A model generated the notes under the pieces. That model made no database searches and was not told the DNA's origin. It was given only the letters and a program-made list of their open reading frames with translations. The translations under genes and the position numbers were made by a program. This document shows positions 33,488-42,014 of a stretch of 64,000 nucleotides of DNA, piece after piece. Positions within the stretch are counted from its first letter, which is position 1. Each line of letters begins with the position of its first letter. The stretch spans positions 62,001 to 126,000 of the forward strand of contig NZ_SGWV01000008.1 in NCBI RefSeq assembly GCF_004216565.1, written 5' to 3'. This DNA comes from Sphaerotilus mobilis. GTDB taxonomy: Bacteria > Pseudomonadota > Gammaproteobacteria > Burkholderiales > Burkholderiaceae_C.

Positions 33488-34414
33488 ATGTCTGACCGTC
33501 TGTCTGCCTTGCTCCAGCGCTTCGAACTGCATGCACGTGTGTTCCACAGCGGCGCGCTGTGCGGCATCACCGACTTCGATGGCGGTGCCGGCATCGGCCA
33601 TTTGCACCTGCTGCGGCGCGGGCCTCTGGGCGTGACCGACACGCTGGGGCGGCACCGTGTGGTCAGCGAACCCAGCGTGCTGTTCTTCCCGCGTGCCGGT
33701 GCGTACCGGCTCGACGGAGGAGAGGGCGAGGGCGCCGATGTCGTGTGTGCGTCGATCGATTTCGGCGCCGGTGACGAGAACCCGCTGCTGCTCGGTCTGC
33801 CGGCCTTGCTGAGCGTGCCGTTGGCCCAACTGCCCGGCCTTGATCTCGCCCAGCAACTGCTGTTTGGCGAGGCGCAGGCCGGCCGCTGCGGACATGGCGC
33901 GGTGGTGGACCGCCTCACCGAGGTGCTGGTGATCCAGCTTCTGCGCCATGCCATGGCCCACCAGTTGGTGGACGGCGGCGTCATGGCCGGCCTCGCCGAC
34001 CCCCGACTGGCCAAGGCCATCAGCGCGCTGCATGCAGATCCCGCGCGTCCCTGGACCCTGGAGGTGATGGCCGAGCAGGCCGGCATGTCGCGGGCCCGCT
34101 TCGCCGCGCACTTCACGCGCACGGTCGGTGTGCCCCCCGGCGAATACCTGACCGGCTGGCGTCTGGGTCTCGCCCGTTCGCTGCTGCGCCAGGGTCTGCC
34201 GGTGAAGCAGGTGGCCGCCGACGTGGGCTATGTCAGCCCTGGGGCCTTCGGGCGCGTCTTCCTGCAACGCCTGGGCATGACACCCTCGCAATGGCAGCTT
34301 CGTGCATCCCCGCGCCCAGGCCAGACAGGGCCCGCAGCACGCGGCCGCGCAAGGCAGCACCTTCACGGGTCACCCGCGTCAGCGCCTAGCCTGGCGATCA
34401 AGCCATTGGGCTGA
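33488..34414 (+). CDS. AraC family transcriptional regulator (cupin-type sensor)
   Basis: A 308-residue regulator. The N-terminal cupin_6-like sensor (about 10-170: ALCGITDFDGGAGIGHLHLL, VLFFPRAGAYRLDGG) precedes two AraC helix-turn-helix motifs (about 175-280: WTLEVMAEQAGMSRARFAAHF and LPVKQVAADVGYVSPGAFGRVF). Relatives with this domain pair often control oxidoreductases or SDRs in response to a small ligand. It is divergent from the peroxiredoxin-like operon, with candidate half-sites 14-59 bases before its start. Its 3' end overlaps the convergent nasA end by 17 bases, and the last 30 residues are low-complexity. Confidence 0.88.
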   Translation: MSDRLSALLQRFELHARVFHSGALCGITDFDGGAGIGHLHLLRRGPLGVTDTLGRHRVVSEPSVLFFPRAGAYRLDGGEGEGADVVCASIDFGAGDENPLLLGLPALLSVPLAQLPGLDLAQQLLFGEAQAGRCGHGAVVDRLTEVLVIQLLRHAMAHQLVDGGVMAGLADPRLAKAISALHADPARPWTLEVMAEQAGMSRARFAAHFTRTVGVPPGEYLTGWRLGLARSLLRQGLPVKQVAADVGYVSPGAFGRVFLQRLGMTPSQWQLRASPRPGQTGPAARGRARQHLHGSPASAPSLAIKPLG

Positions 34415-37259
34415 TGGACCTCGGGCTGCTGGTCCGCGCGGCGCTTGCCACCGCCACCTGCACGACCACCTTCGCTGTCAGGCTGTCCTGCACCAGCGTG
34501 CGCAGCTTGGGCAGACAGCTACCGCACTGCGTGCCGCATTTCAGTTCACCTTGCAGGCGTGCCAGCCGGTCGGCCGGGTCGGCGCTGTGTTCGGGCAGGG
34601 CGCCGAGCGTGTCTTGGATGCGTTGCAGGCTGACGTCCAGGCAGGCGCAGATCTGCGGGCTGCGGGCGGGCAGCGGAGACGGTGAGGTCGGGCTGGCGGC
34701 GAGCAGGGAACGGCCCAGTGCGGCGGCGTCGCCGTCTTGCTGGAGCAGGTCCAGCATCCACGAGGCCGCTCGCGTGTCGCCCGACAGCAGGAAGGCGTCA
34801 AGGCGGCCAGCCTTGTCGAGGTGCATGGCGCGGTCCTGGCCGGCGTGGCGGTCGGCGTAGCGCAGCACGGTGCCGGCGTCCAGCTTCAACAGCGCCTGAA
34901 GCTGGCTCAGCCAGTCCGCTGACAAGGGCTGGTCGGCGGCCACACGCAGCAGCAGGCCGACGCGGCCTTGCGGTTCGCGGCCGAAGGGCACGCAGCTCGC
35001 GTAGGTTTGCCGGGCCATCAGCGCCTGCAGCGCTTCTCGCGTGCTGACCCAGTCGGATTCGGGCAACCAGGCGGCGGCCACCGCACGCCACGGCAGGTCG
35101 ACGGCCTCGACCTGTGCAGCGCTGTGTTTCAGCTCGGGCTGGCCGGATGACGGGCAGCAGATCGGCTGCGTCAGCGTGTTGACGCCCGCGCTGCCGGCAC
35201 CGCCCAGCACCTCACTGCCCCAATGCATGGCCAGATGGACCTGGGCCTCGGCCAGCTCGTCGCTCGCCTGCACCGGCAGGACCAGTTCGCCGCGCCGGGT
35301 CCGCACGCGCACCAGGTCGCCGCCGGTCAGGCCACGCCGTTCGAGGTCGCGCCGATGCATCTGCAGCGCCGGCTCGGGCGTGTGGGCGAGCAGCCGGCCC
35401 AGCGTCCCGGTGCGGCTCATTCCGTGCCACTGGTCGCGCAGGCGGCCGCTGGTCAGGGCCAGCGGGAAGTCGTCGTCGCAGGATTCGGCCGGGCCGCGCG
35501 GGGCCGGGGCGCTGAAACGCGCGCGGCCGTCGCCCGTGACGAAGCGGCCGTCGGTGTAGAGCCGGGCCGTGCCGGTGGTCTGGCCTTGCGGGCACGGCCA
35601 TTGCGCCGGGGCGCGGTCCAGCGCAGCCCAGTCCAGACCGGTGATGTCGAGGTCGCGGCCGCGGGTCATCTCGCGGTGTTCGAGCCAGACCGATTCGGGC
35701 GTCCGGAAATCGAACATCGAACGGCCGGCCGACTCGGGCGTGCGGCGCGAGGGCAGGCGCGCTTCGAGCCGCTGGGCCACGTCGCGGGCGATGAGCCAGT
35801 CGTGGCGGGCCAGGCCGGGCGCATCGATGGCGGGGCGCACGCGGCTGATGCGGCGTTCGCTGTTGGTCACGCTGCCGTCCTTCTCGCCCCAGCTGCTGGC
35901 GGGCAGGACCAGGTCGGCATAGGGCGTGGTGGCGGTGTGGCGGTAGGCCTCCTGCAGCACGACAAACTCGCAGCGTTCCAGGGCACGCCGGACCATGGCC
36001 TGGTCGGGCAGCGATTGAGCGGGGTTGGTGCAGGCGATCCACAGGGCGCGGATCTCGCCGTCGGCCGCCGCCTCGAACATCTGCACAGCCGCCTTGCCCG
36101 GCCGGGCCGGCACATCGGTGACGCCCCACAGGCGGGCCACCTCGGCGCGGTGTTCGGGGTTGCCGAGGTCGCGGTGGCCGCTCAGCAGCGTGGCGAGGCC
36201 GCCCACCTCGCGCCCGCCCATCGCATTGGGCTGACCGGTCAGCGACAGTGGCCCGGCACCGGGCTGGCCGATCTGGCCGGTGGTCAGGTGGAGGTTGATC
36301 AGCGTGGTGTTCTTGTCGGTGCCGCTGCTGCTCTGGTTGAGTCCTTGGCAATACAGGCTCAGGGTCGGGAATCGCCCGCCGTCCGTCGACTGGCCGGCAA
36401 ACCAGCGGGCGGCCTGCACGATGTCTGTTTCTGGCACGCCGCAGATGCGCGCGGCACGGGCCGGGGTGAGGTCGCGCACACGTTCGCGCAGGGCCTCGAA
36501 GCCGTTGGTGTGGGCGGCGATCCAGGCTGCGTCGTGCAGGCCTTCGGCCAGCATGATGTGCAGCATCGCGTGATGCAGCATCACGTCGGTGCCGGGCTGG
36601 ATCGCCAGGTGCAGGTCGGCGACGGCGGCGGTCTCGGTGCGGCGCGGGTCGACCACCACCAGCTTCATGTCGGGCCGGGCGGCTCGGGCGTCTTCGAGTC
36701 GGCGGAACAGCACCGGGTGGGCCCAGGCCATGTTGCTGCCGGTGATGAAGACGGTGCGGGCCAGCGCCAGATCGTCGTAGCAGGCGGGCGGGGCGTCCGC
36801 GCCCAGGCTGGACTTGTAGCCGGACACCGCGCTGCTCATGCACAGGCGCGAGTTGGTGTCGACGTTGTTGCTGCCGATGAGGCCCTTGGCCAGCTTGTTG
36901 AAGACGTGGTAATCCTCGGTCAGCAACTGGCCGGAGAGGTAGAAGCCGACCGCGTCCGGGCCGTGATCGGTGATGGTGGCGGCCAGGCGGTCCGCGACCC
37001 GGTCCAGCGCCGTGTCCCAGCCGATCGGTGCCAGTGGCGCGCCCCGCTGGGTGCGGGCCATCGGGCGGTGCAGGCGGGCGGTCTGCAGCAGCACCGGCGT
37101 GGCCGTCAGGTGCAGCGTGCTGCCCTTGGTGCACAGCCGTCCAAAATTGGCCGGATGGTCAGGATCGCCGCGCACGCCGGTGATCGCACCGGCCTCGTGC
37201 GCGATGACGACGCCGCAGCCGACGCCGCAATAGGGGCAGGTGGAACGGGTCTCGGCCAT
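34398..37259 (-). CDS. nasA: Assimilatory nitrate reductase catalytic subunit
   Basis: A 953-residue molybdenum bis-MGD enzyme reducing nitrate to nitrite in the cytoplasm. The N-terminal [4Fe-4S] ligands are Cys8, Cys11, Cys15 and Cys43 (CPYCGVGCG...RLCTKG). The Mo-binding region has NSRLCMSSAVSGYK, supplying the Cys ligand expected for Nas/Nap-type enzymes. The C-terminus adds a BFD-like [2Fe-2S] domain (about 860-925: ICACLDVS and KCGTQCGSC), as in NasA proteins that take electrons from a flavoprotein partner. It is the last gene of nrtA-nrtB-nrtD-flavoprotein-nasA. No nitrite reductase gene follows. Confidence 0.95.
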   Translation of the reverse strand: MAETRSTCPYCGVGCGVVIAHEAGAITGVRGDPDHPANFGRLCTKGSTLHLTATPVLLQTARLHRPMARTQRGAPLAPIGWDTALDRVADRLAATITDHGPDAVGFYLSGQLLTEDYHVFNKLAKGLIGSNNVDTNSRLCMSSAVSGYKSSLGADAPPACYDDLALARTVFITGSNMAWAHPVLFRRLEDARAARPDMKLVVVDPRRTETAAVADLHLAIQPGTDVMLHHAMLHIMLAEGLHDAAWIAAHTNGFEALRERVRDLTPARAARICGVPETDIVQAARWFAGQSTDGGRFPTLSLYCQGLNQSSSGTDKNTTLINLHLTTGQIGQPGAGPLSLTGQPNAMGGREVGGLATLLSGHRDLGNPEHRAEVARLWGVTDVPARPGKAAVQMFEAAADGEIRALWIACTNPAQSLPDQAMVRRALERCEFVVLQEAYRHTATTPYADLVLPASSWGEKDGSVTNSERRISRVRPAIDAPGLARHDWLIARDVAQRLEARLPSRRTPESAGRSMFDFRTPESVWLEHREMTRGRDLDITGLDWAALDRAPAQWPCPQGQTTGTARLYTDGRFVTGDGRARFSAPAPRGPAESCDDDFPLALTSGRLRDQWHGMSRTGTLGRLLAHTPEPALQMHRRDLERRGLTGGDLVRVRTRRGELVLPVQASDELAEAQVHLAMHWGSEVLGGAGSAGVNTLTQPICCPSSGQPELKHSAAQVEAVDLPWRAVAAAWLPESDWVSTREALQALMARQTYASCVPFGREPQGRVGLLLRVAADQPLSADWLSQLQALLKLDAGTVLRYADRHAGQDRAMHLDKAGRLDAFLLSGDTRAASWMLDLLQQDGDAAALGRSLLAASPTSPSPLPARSPQICACLDVSLQRIQDTLGALPEHSADPADRLARLQGELKCGTQCGSCLPKLRTLVQDSLTAKVVVQVAVASAARTSSPRSISPMA

Positions 37260-37300: not shown

Positions 37301-38542
37301 TCAGGACGCCAGGGCGGCCGCACCGAACATCAGCGCGTGGCGGATGCCGCGCACGTCGCGGCCTTCGCGGATCAGCTGCAGATACCAGGCGCCTTCGGAG
37401 GTGTCGCCATACAGGCAGGCACCGACCAGCTTGTCCCGGTGCAGCACCAGCTTGCGGTAGACGCCTGCTGCGGGGTCTTTCAGCACGATCTCTTCATGGT
37501 CGTCACCGCCGGTGAAGTTGCCGGCCGAATACAGTGCGATGCCGCTGACCTTGAGCTGCGTGCTGACCTGGCTGCCCACATAGCGGCCGATGCCGGACTC
37601 GGCCAGGTGGGTGGCGCAGACGCGGCCTTGTTCGAACACCGGCGCGACCAGCCCGTAGGCGATGCCGCGGTGGGCGGCACATTCGCCAACCGCGTAGATG
37701 CGCGGGTCGGTCACGCTCTGCAGCGTGTCGTGCACGACGATGCCGCGCTCGCAGCGCAGGCCGGCGGCTTCGGCCAGGGCCGTGTTCGGACGGATGCCGG
37801 CGGCCATCACGACCAAGTCGGCGGGGATCTCGCGGCCGTCCTGGAAACGCACGGCACGCACGCGGCCCTGTTCATCGCCCAGCAGGGCCTCGGTCTGCGC
37901 GCCCAGCTCGAAGCGCAGGCCACGCCGTTCCAGTTCGGCCTGCAGCAGCGCACCCGCAGCGGCATCGAGCTGGCGGTCCATCGGCCAGGCGGCGAGGTGG
38001 ACCACGCTGACCGACATGCCGCGCTGGCTCAGGCCGTTGGCGGCTTCCAGCCCCAGCACGCCACCGCCGATGACGACGGCATGGTGGCGCGTTCGCGCCG
38101 CCTCGATCATGGCCTGCGTGTCGGCGATGTTGCGCCAGGCCAGCACGCCGTCTAGCGCACGGCCGGGGATGGGCGGCATGAAGGGTGTGGAGCCGGTGGC
38201 GATCAGCAGCCGCTCATACGGCGCCTCGCTGCCGTCATCGGCCACCACGACCCGTCGAACACGGTCGATGCGCTCGACCTTGCGGTCCAGGTGCAGCGTG
38301 ATGCCGTGGCGCGCGTACCAGTCCAGTGGGTGGAGCACGATCTGCTCGATCGTCTGTTCGCCGGCCAGCACGGGGCTGAGCATGATGCGGTTGTAGTTCG
38401 GATGCGGTTCGGCGCCGAACACGGTGATGTCGTAGCGCTCGGGTGCGATCTTCAGCAGTTCCTCCAGCGTGCGCATGCCGGCCATGCCGTTGCCGACGAG
38501 GACGAGGCGCGGCCGTGGTGCCGGAAGATCGTCGCGTGTCAT
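37301..38542 (-). CDS. NAD(P)H/FAD oxidoreductase, NirB N-terminal-like, probable NasA electron donor
   Basis: A 413-residue pyridine-nucleotide disulphide-type flavoprotein. It matches only the N-terminal flavin half of nitrite reductase NirB or Bacillus NasB: VLVGNGMAGMRTLEELL, HPNYNRIMLSPVLAGE, VIGGGVLGLEAANGL and YAVGECAAHRG. The sirohaem-[4Fe-4S] half of NirB (which would bring the total to over 800 residues) is absent, so this is not a nitrite reductase. Its start overlaps nrtD (ATGA), and nasA follows after 41 bases. The probable role is to pass electrons from NAD(P)H to the [2Fe-2S] tail of NasA. Confidence 0.88.
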   Translation of the reverse strand: MTRDDLPAPRPRLVLVGNGMAGMRTLEELLKIAPERYDITVFGAEPHPNYNRIMLSPVLAGEQTIEQIVLHPLDWYARHGITLHLDRKVERIDRVRRVVVADDGSEAPYERLLIATGSTPFMPPIPGRALDGVLAWRNIADTQAMIEAARTRHHAVVIGGGVLGLEAANGLSQRGMSVSVVHLAAWPMDRQLDAAAGALLQAELERRGLRFELGAQTEALLGDEQGRVRAVRFQDGREIPADLVVMAAGIRPNTALAEAAGLRCERGIVVHDTLQSVTDPRIYAVGECAAHRGIAYGLVAPVFEQGRVCATHLAESGIGRYVGSQVSTQLKVSGIALYSAGNFTGGDDHEEIVLKDPAAGVYRKLVLHRDKLVGACLYGDTSEGAWYLQLIREGRDVRGIRHALMFGAAALAS

Positions 38543-39369
38543 GCCGCGTGCGCCTCGACGTGGGCCTGCTTGGCGTACAGGAACTCCAGCACCGACTCGC
38601 GCGCCTGCAGGTAGCGGGCGTCGTGGGCCATCTCCAGGCGGTTGCGGGCGGCTTCGCGCACCGGCGGCAGCGGCACATTGAGCACCTCGCCGATCGTGGC
38701 GGCCGGGCCGTTGGTCAGCATCACGATGCGGTCGGACAGCAGCACCGCCTCGTCGACGTCGTGCGTCACCATCATCACGGTGGAGCCGGTCGCAGCGACG
38801 ATCTTCATCAGCTCGTCCTGCAGCTTGGCGCGGGTCAGGGCATCGAGCGCGCCGAAGGGCTCGTCCATCAGCAGCATCTTGGGCTCCATCGCCAGCGCCC
38901 GGGCGATGCCCACACGCTGCTTCATGCCGCCGGAGATCTCGCCGGGCCGCTTGTCGCTGGCATGGGTCAGGCCGACCAGGTTCAAGGCGGCGCGGGCGCG
39001 CTCGCGCAACTGGGCCTTCTTCTCGGTCGCGCCGAAGACCCGTTCGACGGCCAGCAGCACGTTGTCCAGGCAGGTCAGCCAGGGCAGCAGCGAGTGGTTC
39101 TGGAACACCACCGCGCGGTCCGGGCCGGGGCCACGCAGCTCGCGGCCGTCAAGCAGCAGCACGCCGCTGGTCGGCGTCGTCAGACCGGCCACGAGGTTCA
39201 GCAGCGTGGACTTGCCGCAGCCGGAATGGCCGATCAACGCGATGAACTCGCCGCGGGCGACGTCGAGGTTGATGTCGCGCAGCGCCACGAAGGGGCCCTT
39301 GCGGGTCGGGAAGGTCATGCCGACCTGGCTGATGCTCAGGAAGCGGCTCTGGTTCACGGAGGCGGTCAT
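38539..39369 (-). CDS. nrtD: Nitrate ABC transporter ATP-binding protein
   Basis: A 276-residue ATPase of the nitrate/sulfonate/taurine (NrtD/SsuB) group. Walker A is GHSGCGKST, the Q-loop VFQNHSLLPW, the signature ISGGMKQRVGIARAL and Walker B LLMDEPFGALD. The ATG at 39369 (MTASVNQSRFLSISQ) gives the usual length. The longer frame reads through the permease gene. It energises uptake with NrtA and NrtB and overlaps the next gene by 4 bases. Confidence 0.92.
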   Translation of the reverse strand: MTASVNQSRFLSISQVGMTFPTRKGPFVALRDINLDVARGEFIALIGHSGCGKSTLLNLVAGLTTPTSGVLLLDGRELRGPGPDRAVVFQNHSLLPWLTCLDNVLLAVERVFGATEKKAQLRERARAALNLVGLTHASDKRPGEISGGMKQRVGIARALAMEPKMLLMDEPFGALDALTRAKLQDELMKIVAATGSTVMMVTHDVDEAVLLSDRIVMLTNGPAATIGEVLNVPLPPVREAARNRLEMAHDARYLQARESVLEFLYAKQAHVEAHAA

Positions 39370-39415: not shown

Positions 39416-40384
39416 TCAGCGGTACTCGAAGCGGCGGGCGAAGGCCACCAGCAGGGCTTCCAGCAGCAGGCCGACGCCACCGATCACGAAGATGGCGATC
39501 AGGATGTGGGCGACGTTGAGGTTGTTCCACTCGTCCCACAGCCAGAAGCCGATGCCCTGACCGCCGGTCAGCATCTCGGCGGCAACGATCACCAGCCAGG
39601 CGGTGCCGACGGCCAGTCGCACGCCGGTCAGCATGTAGGGCAGCACGGCGGGAAAGAGGATCTTGCGCAGGATCGTCCACTCGCTGAGGTTGAGCACCCG
39701 GGCGACGTTGAGGTAGTCCTGCGGCACCTGCCGCACCCCGACCGCCGTGTTGATCACCATCGGCCAGATCGAGCAGATGAAGATGGTCCAGATGGCCGCC
39801 GGATTGGCGGCCTTGAAGACCATCAGGCCGATCGGCAGCCAGGCCAGCGGCGAGACCGGGCGCAGCAGGCTGATGATCGGATCGAGCATCTGGTTGAGGA
39901 AGCTGAAGCGGCCGATCGCGAAGCCCAGCGGGATGCCCACCAGCGCGGCCAGGCCAAAGCCCAGGGCCACCCGCTGCAGCGAGGACAGCACGTTCCAGCC
40001 GATGCCCTGGTCGTTCGGGCCCTTGACGTAGAAAGGGTCGGCGAACAGCTTGACGGCGGCGTCCCAGGTGGCGATCGGGCCGGGCAGTTGCTTGTCGCCG
40101 GTCTGCGCCACCAACTGCCAGACCAGCAGCATCAGCAGCAAGCCCAGCACGGGTGCGACGACCTTGGTCAGCAGCACCCGGCGTTGTGCCCGCAGCAGCG
40201 CGGCGGTCTGTTCGCGCGCTGCCGTGTCGCCCTGGGAGAGGGCGACGGCCTCGGCCAGGTCCGCCGCAGCCGGGTGGGCCGCGACCACGGCCAGGGGCGG
40301 TGAGGACACCGGGTGGGCCGGGCCGGACTGTGGCGGGGCTGCGGGAGGCGTGAGGCCGGAGATGGCCAGCGTGCTTGCGCTCAT
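39416..40384 (-). CDS. nrtB: Nitrate ABC transporter permease
   Basis: A 322-residue inner-membrane permease of the NrtB/SsuC group with about six membrane helices from residue 75 onward. The EAA loop is seen around YLNVARVLNLSEWTILRKILFPAVLPYM. The first about 70 residues form an unusual Pro/Ala-rich cytoplasmic extension (GLTPPAAPPQSGPAHPV). The start at 40384 (MSASTLAISG) is preceded by AGGAGCGACC. It lies 62 bases after nrtA. Confidence 0.92.
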   Translation of the reverse strand: MSASTLAISGLTPPAAPPQSGPAHPVSSPPLAVVAAHPAAADLAEAVALSQGDTAAREQTAALLRAQRRVLLTKVVAPVLGLLLMLLVWQLVAQTGDKQLPGPIATWDAAVKLFADPFYVKGPNDQGIGWNVLSSLQRVALGFGLAALVGIPLGFAIGRFSFLNQMLDPIISLLRPVSPLAWLPIGLMVFKAANPAAIWTIFICSIWPMVINTAVGVRQVPQDYLNVARVLNLSEWTILRKILFPAVLPYMLTGVRLAVGTAWLVIVAAEMLTGGQGIGFWLWDEWNNLNVAHILIAIFVIGGVGLLLEALLVAFARRFEYR

Positions 40385-40446: not shown

Positions 40447-41703
40447 TCAGGCGACCTTGATCTTGAAGCCGCTGGCGTACTTGCCTGGGTCCTTGCCATC
40501 CCAGGTCACGCCGTCGACCATCTTGCTGCTGCGCATGTCGCTTTTTGGCAGGTTGATCTTCAGCTGGGTAGCCGCTTCCTTGTAGATCGCCGTCTGGTTG
40601 ATGGCCTTGGCGACACCCAGGTAGTCGATGTCGGCCTTGAGCAGGCCCCAGCGGCGATGCTGGGTCAGGAACCACATGCCGTCGGACAGGTAGGGGTAGT
40701 TGACAGCGCCGTCGTTGAAGAACTTCATGTGGTTCGGGTCGTCCCAGGTCTTGCCCAGGCCGTTCTGGTAGCGGCCCAGGATGCGCTGGTTGATGACGTC
40801 GACGGTGGTGTTGACGAAGGACTTCTCGGCGATCGCCTCGGCCATCTTCATCTTGTTCTGCAGGCCGGTGTCGATCCAGCGGCTGGCCTCGAGAATGGCC
40901 ATGACCATGGCGCGTGCCGTGTTCGGGTTCTTCTGCACGAACTCGGCGGTGGTGCCGAGCACCTTCTCGGGGTGGTCGCGCCAGATGTCCTGCGTGGTGA
41001 TCGCGGTGATGCCGATGCCGTCGGCGATCGCGCGGTGGTTCCACGGCTCGCCCACGCAGTAGCCGTCCATGTTGCCCACGCGCATGTTGGCCACCATCTG
41101 CGGCGGCGGCACGGTGATGACCTTGGCGTCCTGCATCGGGTTGATGCCGTTGGCCGCCATCCAGTAGTACAGCCACATCGCGTGCGTGCCGGTCGGGAAG
41201 GTCTGCGCGAAGGTGTATTCACGCGGCTCGGCCTTCATCAGCTTGGCCAGCCCGGCGCCGTCGACCGCACCCTTGTCGGCCAGCTTCTTCGACAGCGTGA
41301 TCGCCTGGCCGTTGTGGTTGAGCGTCATCAGGACAGCCATGTCCTTTTTTGGCCCGCTGATGCCCAGGTGCACGCCGTAGATCAGGCCGTAGAGCGAGTG
41401 GGCCGCGTCGAGTTCGCCGTTGACCAGCTTGTCGCGCACGGCGGCCCAGGACGATTCCTTGCTCGGGATGATCTTGATGCCGTGCTTCTCGTCGAACTTC
41501 ATCAGCGAGGCCATCACCACCGAGGCGCAGTCGGTCAGCGGGATGAAGCCGATGCGCACTTCCTTCTTCTCCGGGGCGTCGGAGCCGGCCGCCCAGGCAT
41601 GGGTCGACAGGGCCGAGCCCGCCACCACGGCGGCGGACACCGCGGTCGTCTCCTGGATGAAGCGGCGGCGACCTGCGCTGATGAGTCCTTCGGGCTTGAA
41701 CAT
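40447..41703 (-). CDS. nrtA: Nitrate ABC transporter substrate-binding protein
   Basis: A 418-residue nitrate-binding protein of the NrtA/CmpA family. The N-terminus is a twin-arginine-type signal (AGRRRFIQETTAVSAAVVAG) ending near THAWAAG. Family motifs are VRIGFIPLTDCA, GELDAAHSLYGLIYG, FPTGTHAMWLYYWMAANGI and NMDGYCVGEPWN. I chose the ATG at 41703, 6 bases after a GGAGA ribosome-binding site. It is the first gene of the nitrate operon, preceded by a regulated RNA leader of about 160 bases. Confidence 0.93.
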   Translation of the reverse strand: MFKPEGLISAGRRRFIQETTAVSAAVVAGSALSTHAWAAGSDAPEKKEVRIGFIPLTDCASVVMASLMKFDEKHGIKIIPSKESSWAAVRDKLVNGELDAAHSLYGLIYGVHLGISGPKKDMAVLMTLNHNGQAITLSKKLADKGAVDGAGLAKLMKAEPREYTFAQTFPTGTHAMWLYYWMAANGINPMQDAKVITVPPPQMVANMRVGNMDGYCVGEPWNHRAIADGIGITAITTQDIWRDHPEKVLGTTAEFVQKNPNTARAMVMAILEASRWIDTGLQNKMKMAEAIAEKSFVNTTVDVINQRILGRYQNGLGKTWDDPNHMKFFNDGAVNYPYLSDGMWFLTQHRRWGLLKADIDYLGVAKAINQTAIYKEAATQLKINLPKSDMRSSKMVDGVTWDGKDPGKYASGFKIKVA

Positions 41704-41755: not shown

Positions 41756-41822
41756 AAAAAAGGAAAAGGCGTCTCGACCACGCACCCGCGACGTCGTCGC
41801 TGGGAACGGGTCGGACGCCTTT
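41756..41822 (-). terminator. Leader terminator in front of nrtA
   Basis: On the minus strand AAAGGCGTC (41814-41822) pairs with GACGCCTTT (41765-41773). The stem is extended inside by CGACC/GGTCG and a nested GCGAC/GTCGC hairpin, and is followed by a U-rich run (to 41756). It would stop transcription before nrtA. Its 5' arm is part of the second ANTAR-type hairpin, so the two structures exclude each other. Confidence 0.8.
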
Positions 41823-41860
41823 GTCCGATGCCTGTTGCCACCGGTACGCCATTGCACCGG
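41811..41860 (-). promoter_or_regulatory. ANTAR-type dual hairpin antitermination leader (NasT target)
   Basis: Two adjacent stem-loops read on the minus strand. P1 (41841-41860) has a 7-bp stem (one G-U pair) and the hexaloop AAUGGC. P2 (41811-41828) has a 6-bp stem UCGGAC/GUCCGA and the hexaloop AAAGGC. A 12-base linker joins them. Both loops have A at position 1 and G at position 4, the recognised signature of RNAs bound by ANTAR proteins such as NasT and NasR. P2 shares bases with the terminator, so ANTAR binding should allow read-through. Neither nasS nor nasT is in this window. Confidence 0.82.
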
Positions 41861-41875
41861 GGCTTGAAGGAGGTA

Positions 41876-41892
41876 TTGCAGGAGCCGTGCCA
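41876..41892 (-). promoter_or_regulatory. Sigma-54 (RpoN) promoter of the nitrate operon
   Basis: On the minus strand TGGCACGGCTCCTGCAA matches the sigma-54 consensus TGGCACG-N4-TTGCW with one mismatch, and the GG and GC elements have the exact 10-base spacing. Transcription would start near 41866, about six bases before hairpin P1, so the leader begins with the antitermination structure. NtrC is the expected activator. Confidence 0.8.
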
Positions 41893-41950: not shown

Positions 41951-42014
41951 CCGGGCGCACCAGCGCGGCGCGCCCGGCGCCTGTGCTTGGTGCATCGGGA
42001 AAACCCGGATGCAC
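41951..42014. other. Two dyads between the SDR gene and the nitrate promoter
   Basis: An 8-bp inverted repeat (CCGGGCGC at 41951-41958, GCGCCCGG at 41970-41977) is one dyad. The other is a long near-palindrome at 41990-42014 (GTGCATCGGG, AAAA, CCCGGATGCAC, one bulged base). They lie downstream of the SDR stop (42037) and 60-150 bases upstream of the sigma-54 promoter. They could be the SDR terminator or activator-binding sites. Neither matches an NtrC site well, and neither has a U-tract. Confidence 0.35.

Follow-up and report, generated by a model that had tools for sequence, protein, structure and literature searches.

How does a nitrate assimilation operon come under the control of nitrate and of nitrogen status when no regulatory gene lies beside it? 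The question is raised by a minus-strand operon in the stretch of 64,000 nucleotides analysed here (the window, C2:62001–126000 of a genome of 15 contigs that is rated 100% complete). The gene order after the leader is nrtA-nrtB-nrtD-reductase-nasA. A domain match (NMT1_2) and its NrtA relatives identify nrtA (40447–41703) as the gene for the nitrate-binding protein, and the products of nrtB (nitrate ABC permease, 39416–40384) and nrtD (nitrate ABC ATPase, 38539–39369) matched TIGR01183 and TIGR01184, respectively, above cut-off. The fourth gene (37301–38542) encodes an FAD/NAD(P)H reductase like the N-terminal half of NirB, whose model it matched below its cut-off; by inference, this protein would be a NasC-like electron donor. 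The last gene (34398–37259), whose product carries a C-terminal BFD [2Fe-2S] domain, scored below the NCBIfam equivalog cut-offs and was named nasA, for assimilatory nitrate reductase, from its context.

A sequence-only reading of this locus had proposed control in two steps, first by NtrC/RpoN for nitrogen status and then by NasT-type antitermination for nitrate, with neither regulator gene adjacent. We consider it highly probable that the nrtABD-reductase-nasA leader combines sigma-54 initiation, most likely activated by NtrC, with antitermination in trans, and that the antiterminator is NasR.

The promoter and the competing hairpins

The regulatory elements occupy positions 41756–41892 of the window on the minus strand, ahead of nrtA, in the order sigma-54 box, P1, linker, P2 and terminator. 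The sigma-54 promoter (TGGCACGGCTCCTGCA, 41877–41892), recognised from its sequence and from the pattern in relatives, has GG at −24 and GC at −12. From the spacing usual for sigma-54, transcription is predicted to start at 41866, 12 bases past the −12 C and six before P1. P1 (41841–41860; hexaloop 41848–41853) is a 7-bp hairpin, CCGGUGC-AAUGGC-GUACCGG, supported by folding and by covariation of its stem, and would be the recruitment hairpin. A linker of 12 nt (41829–41840), or 14 nt when P2 is counted as 4 bp, leads to P2 (41811–41828; hexaloop 41817–41822), the putative antiterminator, a 6-bp hairpin, UCGGAC-AAAGGC-GUCCGA, supported by sequence, folding and covariance model. Both hexaloops have A1 and G4 and are closed by a C:G pair. 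The intrinsic terminator, delimited by folding, extends from AAAGGCGUCC (from 41822) to GACGCCUUUUCCUUUUUU (ending at 41756), with a U-rich tail at 41756–41767, and its formation excludes P2. On all of these points, namely the position of the sigma-54 element, the start six bases before P1, the loops AAUGGC and AAAGGC and a terminator with its 5′ arm inside P2, the sequence-only reading was exact or agreed with our prediction.

The 5′ arm of the terminator is made of the P2 loop and the P2 3′ strand, and P2 and the terminator are mutually exclusive through these shared bases. In RNA folding, the full leader adopted P1 plus the terminator at −66.1 kcal/mol (z −5.9; equalled by 0 of 200 shuffles), and forcing P1 plus P2 gave −53.9 kcal/mol, which is 12 kcal/mol weaker. 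When the leader was cut right behind P2, it folded as P1 plus P2. P2 can therefore form during transcription, and the energy order of the folds indicates that the terminator displaces P2 unless P2 is held. A simple sigma-70/terminator scan listed nothing at 41756–41892, presumably because its short-loop rule misses a long, interrupted stem, and Rfam at the gathering threshold returned no match in the window.

Under nitrogen limitation, an activator, most likely NtrC, would allow sigma-54 polymerase to start at about 41866. Without inducer, the nascent RNA would fold into the terminator and polymerase would stop at the U-rich tract, ~100–110 nt past the start. With nitrate or nitrite, NasR, made from its unlinked gene, would bind P1 and then the P2 hexaloop, holding P2; the terminator 5′ arm would stay unpaired and polymerase would continue into nrtA. 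Within this scheme we infer both that NasR is the protein that binds the nrtA leader and that the leader responds to nitrate.

The genes for the initiation step are present and unlinked to the operon (RpoN at C3:457858, NtrC at C4:412103), as are the two ANTAR genes of the genome (C4:576774 and C2:849296), in line with the earlier statement that the regulators are not adjacent. The choice of NtrC draws on pathway knowledge from Klebsiella and B. cenocepacia: in the latter, excerpts of PMC5491218 describe NtrC as required for the nitrate genes and for nasT, and an ntrC mutant that loses nitrate use together with the nitrate gene transcripts. Upstream of the promoter, the best NtrC-like dyad is weak, with 10 of 12 letters, and 38 of 300 shuffles contained one as good; across 76 relatives, the best dyad scored 9.4 on average, modestly above the 8.4 of resampled sequence. 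The weakness of this dyad, and the 13 further places in the genome that match the central domain of the NtrC model, would fit an arrangement in which antitermination is real and a sigma-54 activator other than NtrC initiates transcription. Against the phenotype of the B. cenocepacia mutant, we judge this unlikely, and NtrC is retained as the probable activator.

Between the promoter and the upstream gene, which is short-chain dehydrogenase-like by eye, window positions 41990–42014 hold an imperfect inverted repeat, GTGCATCCGGG-TTT-TCCCGATGCAC, with one bulged C. It could be either a terminator stem or an activator site.

Conservation and covariation of the leader

With NrtA as the query, 48 of the 60 genomes searched within the family of the window gave a match, and the leaders of 42 were examined; the other six genomes, with NrtA matches of 24–35% identity only, were left out. 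A TGGCA-type −24/−12 box, a P2 with a G4 hexaloop and a terminator preceded nrtA in 42 of 42 leaders, the box being there partly by search in the 12 that were located by scanning for a sigma-54 pattern combined with a hexaloop hairpin. An upstream hairpin of at least 3 bp with an A1/G4 hexaloop was present in 41 of 42, the exception (L008) belonging to the same genus as the window. Terminator arm pairing was likewise present in the 42 leaders, an agreement between P2 and terminator that arises partly by construction since P2 was picked by a score rewarding a matching terminator arm. This does not apply to P1, which was located by its loop letters alone.

P1 statistics were taken over 40 of the 42 leaders, L008 and L014 being without an AANGRC loop; where two were present, in four leaders, one was chosen (by hand for L029). 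All 40 usable leaders form stem pairs 1–3, and pairs 2 and 3 each occurred as six pair types, which none of 2000 shuffles reached. Over 23 leaders, the covariation score was 0.540, a value reached by 0 of 500 shuffles (0.128). Of the five covariation measures applied to these 23 leaders, one, the number of pairs changed on both sides, showed no excess over shuffles (6 vs 5.8). The compensatory stem changes that the sequence-only reading had asked for are abundant in P1, in the 40-leader set as in the 23-leader count. The P2 stem was near-invariant over the 23 leaders, with one pair varying on one side only, and contributes little covariation evidence; near-invariance is expected because the P2 3′ strand must also build the terminator.

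A covariance-model search across the nrtA leaders of relatives had also been suggested. We built one model (R1) from 23 of the 42 leaders, chosen for their shorter spacing, and a second (R2) from the same set minus the leader of the window. R2 recovered the site with E 4e-11 in the window and with 47.2 bits and E 2.9e-9 in the genome, where the leader was the only strong match reported and the next had E 0.08 (150 of 12724 first-look candidates scored). In the genome search with R1, 150 of 8751 first-look candidates were scored; the R1 and R2 searches could both miss weaker sites.

Among the matches listed, we also considered 80 named loci, 78 of which have at least 279 bases upstream. The sigma-54 pattern occurred at −300 to −50 in 76 of these 78 relatives, compared with 14 of 1062 downstream control blocks of 250 bases, and a sigma-54-like site was found in all 78. 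A strict test for box, P2 and terminator was passed by 59 of the 80 (58 of the 59 with an upstream A1/G4 hairpin), and 63 of the 80 listed loci had an R1 match at E ≤ 0.1. The named set and the 60-genome set overlap (L150, L158, L211) and are not independent.

The strong terminator-like fold would also be expected of a terminator that is constitutive or that ends upstream transcription, with no ANTAR control and with hexaloops that are coincidental. We regard this as very improbable given the covariation of P1, the near-invariant loops and closing pairs, the location of the site downstream of a sigma-54 start and the linkage of ANTAR genes to the leader in relatives (see below). The leader is confirmed as a real, well-conserved regulatory element.

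The probable ANTAR regulator of the leader

The genome has two ANTAR matches only. The protein encoded on C4 (L005:6718–8019), a NasR, combines a complete NIT domain with an ANTAR domain and matched K. oxytoca NasR (4AKK) with E 6.8e-37. Its gene is on a contig other than that of the window, where it follows nirB and a nirD of the Rieske type (nirB-nirD-nasR). The protein retains the equivalents of K. oxytoca R340, K347 and R176, the last of which is a nitrate-binding residue. Phe replaces W362 in this protein and in the NasR of G039, and four of the five NIT partner residues of the published autoinhibitory interdomain contacts differ. The W362 position is never Phe in NIT-ANTAR proteins according to excerpts of PMC7496416. 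This substitution and the changed NIT partners count against NasR as the regulator of the leader. The C:G-closed A1/G4 hexaloops available to NasR in the leader match the SELEX preference of K. oxytoca NasR, which favours such loops (PMC7496416, from its section 2.1).

The second ANTAR match (C2:849296; L006:6255–7205) belongs to a receiver protein adjoining a likely sensor kinase, the kinase being recognised by eye. It covers profile positions 15–53 only and has lost the RK..ERAKG basic helix and the aromatic residue. Judged by similarity only, weak ANTAR matches of this kind coexist with strong nrtA-linked ones elsewhere (e.g. G005, G034, G036, G007, G028). Neither of the two matches in the genome qualifies as a competent NasT-like ANTAR. 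NrtA as the query for NasS found NrtA alone in this genome, in a search that could miss a strongly diverged NasS. With a NIT-ANTAR NasR present, the receiver-ANTAR eroded and NasS not found, the likely antiterminator of this leader is NasR rather than NasT. Of the earlier proposal, sigma-54 initiation combined with ANTAR antitermination stands, with RpoN and NtrC both in the genome, and NasT as the regulator gives way to NasR; the search for nasS and nasT that it called for found neither, with NasR able to fill the role.

We then compared the genes that adjoin the leader in relatives. By eye, 35 of the 42 leader-bearing genomes have a same-strand ANTAR gene no more than 1 kb upstream of nrtA, the remaining seven being G000, G058, G033, G039, G030, G011 and G022. 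Eight of the 35 were NIT-ANTAR genes and 27 were NasT-like, with an ANTAR frame without NIT. The guess of NasT thus suits 27 of the 42 leader genomes and fails for this one. Each of the 40 genomes that carry a close nrtA (E ≤ 1e-166) also had an ANTAR match, and none of the 14 genomes without an ANTAR match has a close nrtA by the same threshold. When 12 of the ANTAR-less genomes were searched with R1, 11 gave nothing better than E 0.0086.

In the twelfth, G027 (L129, L130), a strong leader near a contig end is followed by an nrtD-like stretch, and the genome has a NIT protein and no ANTAR match. The missing ANTAR is possibly an assembly gap; as it stands, a strong leader without an ANTAR match counts against sigma-54 plus NasR control, as do departures in P1 within the Leptothrix/Sphaerotilus group. 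There, L008 and L144, from the genus of the window, have a P1 loop without A1/G4, and in L143 the sole P1 candidate is an A:U-closed ACGGGG; all three keep P2 and the terminator.

NIT and ANTAR occurred together in 12 of the 60 genomes of this betaproteobacterial family, in 11 as frames of equal length and in G057 split over two contig ends. In G051 (L071), a NIT-domain frame lies just 5′ of a NasT-like gene and is not part of a single NIT-ANTAR frame. G058, of the same genus as the window, may have another sensor fusion: the product of L066:5249–6610 carries a PilJ domain at its C-terminus, behind the ANTAR domain, and its gene lies ~3 kb from one for a reductase resembling that of the window.

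The P2 loop was AACGGC in 8 of 8 nrtA leaders adjoining NIT-ANTAR genes and AAAGGC in 17 of 27 adjoining NasT-like genes. The window has AAAGGC, and sharing this loop with the NasT-like-adjacent leaders counts against NasR. A loop code, with AACGGC for NIT-ANTAR and AAAGGC for NasT-like proteins, was rejected as a rule because AAAGGC also occurs in additional leaders of G020 and G022, which are NIT-ANTAR genomes. These further leaders carry AAUGGC/AAAGGC, as in the window, and precede a NirB-like reductase gene (nasA downstream) and nirB. In the NIT-ANTAR genomes G020, G022 and G003, nirB, nasA or a gene for a NirB-like reductase is preceded by a further leader of ANTAR type (L125, L126, L127, L128), which amounts to a multi-operon regulon.

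The leader before nirB was considered as a second NasR target in the present genome and dropped: neither the bases before nirB nor the candidates scored in the R1 and R2 genome searches gave a strong second site. G039 combines the nirB-nasR neighbourhood with a NasT-like gene at a distance of 2.9 kb from nrtA; NasR proteins of this lineage therefore need not have nrtA as their target and may serve other tasks there.

Could a different ANTAR protein work the same RNA switch, for instance the receiver-ANTAR at C2:849 kb next to a kinase, with NasR serving another target? The NasT-like gene that adjoins the leader in 27 of the 42 genomes and the P2 loop of the window, which is the commonest form beside such genes, speak for it. 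The assembly, rated 100% complete, holds only the two ANTAR matches, and the receiver-ANTAR is partial, lacks its basic helix and aromatic residue and resembles weak ANTARs that elsewhere accompany strong nrtA-linked ones; the genome search, with 150 of 12724 candidates scored, reported no other strong target for NasR. On balance, we think there is only a small chance that a protein other than NasR acts here.

Leader geometry and related systems

The 42 leaders differ in layout. Thirteen have P1 and P2 alone, as in the window, 13 have an additional short hairpin 5′ of P1 (with an A1/G4 loop in 8 of 13), 15 have a folded P1–P2 gap of 36–66 nt (L007–L036, L072–L083) and L008 is without a canonical P1 loop; these classes were set after viewing the leaders and are descriptive, not predicted beforehand. 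The interposed folds beat 95% of mononucleotide shuffles in 11 of 15 leaders (not in L014, L023, L026 and L034). Of the 5′ hairpins, only 1 of 13 stood out by energy against mononucleotide shuffles.

In excerpts of PMC3369931, the linkers of E. faecalis eut leaders are given as 5–12 nt, and PMC8934654, likewise seen as excerpts, reports that a 20-nt linker extension abolished antitermination by EutV and presents a successive-binding model. Because a plain extension of 20 nt has this effect, the interposed hairpins might act as spacers in folded form. Tentatively, and with more doubt than confidence, we suggest that the leader of this family is an ANTAR switch of variable geometry, that NIT, non-NIT and PilJ-fused ANTARs have been exchanged on one RNA, and that the window holds a reduced two-hairpin form, a leader of NasT ancestry taken over by an unlinked NasR. 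If so, the ANTAR protein would cross a folded spacer from P1 to P2. Among the papers listed in a search of the open literature, none joined a 'third hairpin' with ANTAR.

The closest known system is the K. oxytoca nasF leader with NasR (4AKK), which also serves a nitrate assimilation operon and also combines Ntr/sigma-54 and NasR control, as stated in the excerpted text of PMC5424462, with two A1/G4 hexaloop hairpins and an overlap of P2 with the terminator. Here, however, the host is betaproteobacterial, near Leptothrix/Sphaerotilus, nasR is unlinked in nirB-nirD-nasR and nirB lies outside the nitrate operon. In the NasS-NasT systems of Paracoccus and Azotobacter, too, nitrate assimilation is subject to nitrogen control and to antitermination by an ANTAR protein, whereas neither a NasS-like protein nor a competent ANTAR of the NasT type was found in this genome. 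In P. denitrificans, hairpin HI of the nasA leader is described as required for expression and for growth on nitrate (PMC5424462, in excerpt), and NasT as binding that leader (excerpts of PMC3795266). The eut leaders of Enterococcus faecalis with EutV share the dual-hexaloop antiterminator and a short linker but differ in signal, in the sensor domain of the protein and in the operon.

Dual-hairpin ANTAR leaders, their overlap with a terminator and their link to nitrogen genes have already been published, and Burkholderia is among the named hosts of predicted ANTAR sites (PMC3369931, with commentary PMC3369936 for the former points; both in excerpt). Among the papers listed in a search of the open literature, none dealt with the leader in Leptothrix or Sphaerotilus, which is not proof of absence. 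The type of mechanism is already known and its location in this nitrate operon is new.

For the family, the natural spacing variants are ready material for testing successive binding by ANTAR proteins. For the organism, an operon with all of its regulators unlinked would gain control by both nitrate and nitrogen, with the regulator corrected from NasT to, most likely, NasR.
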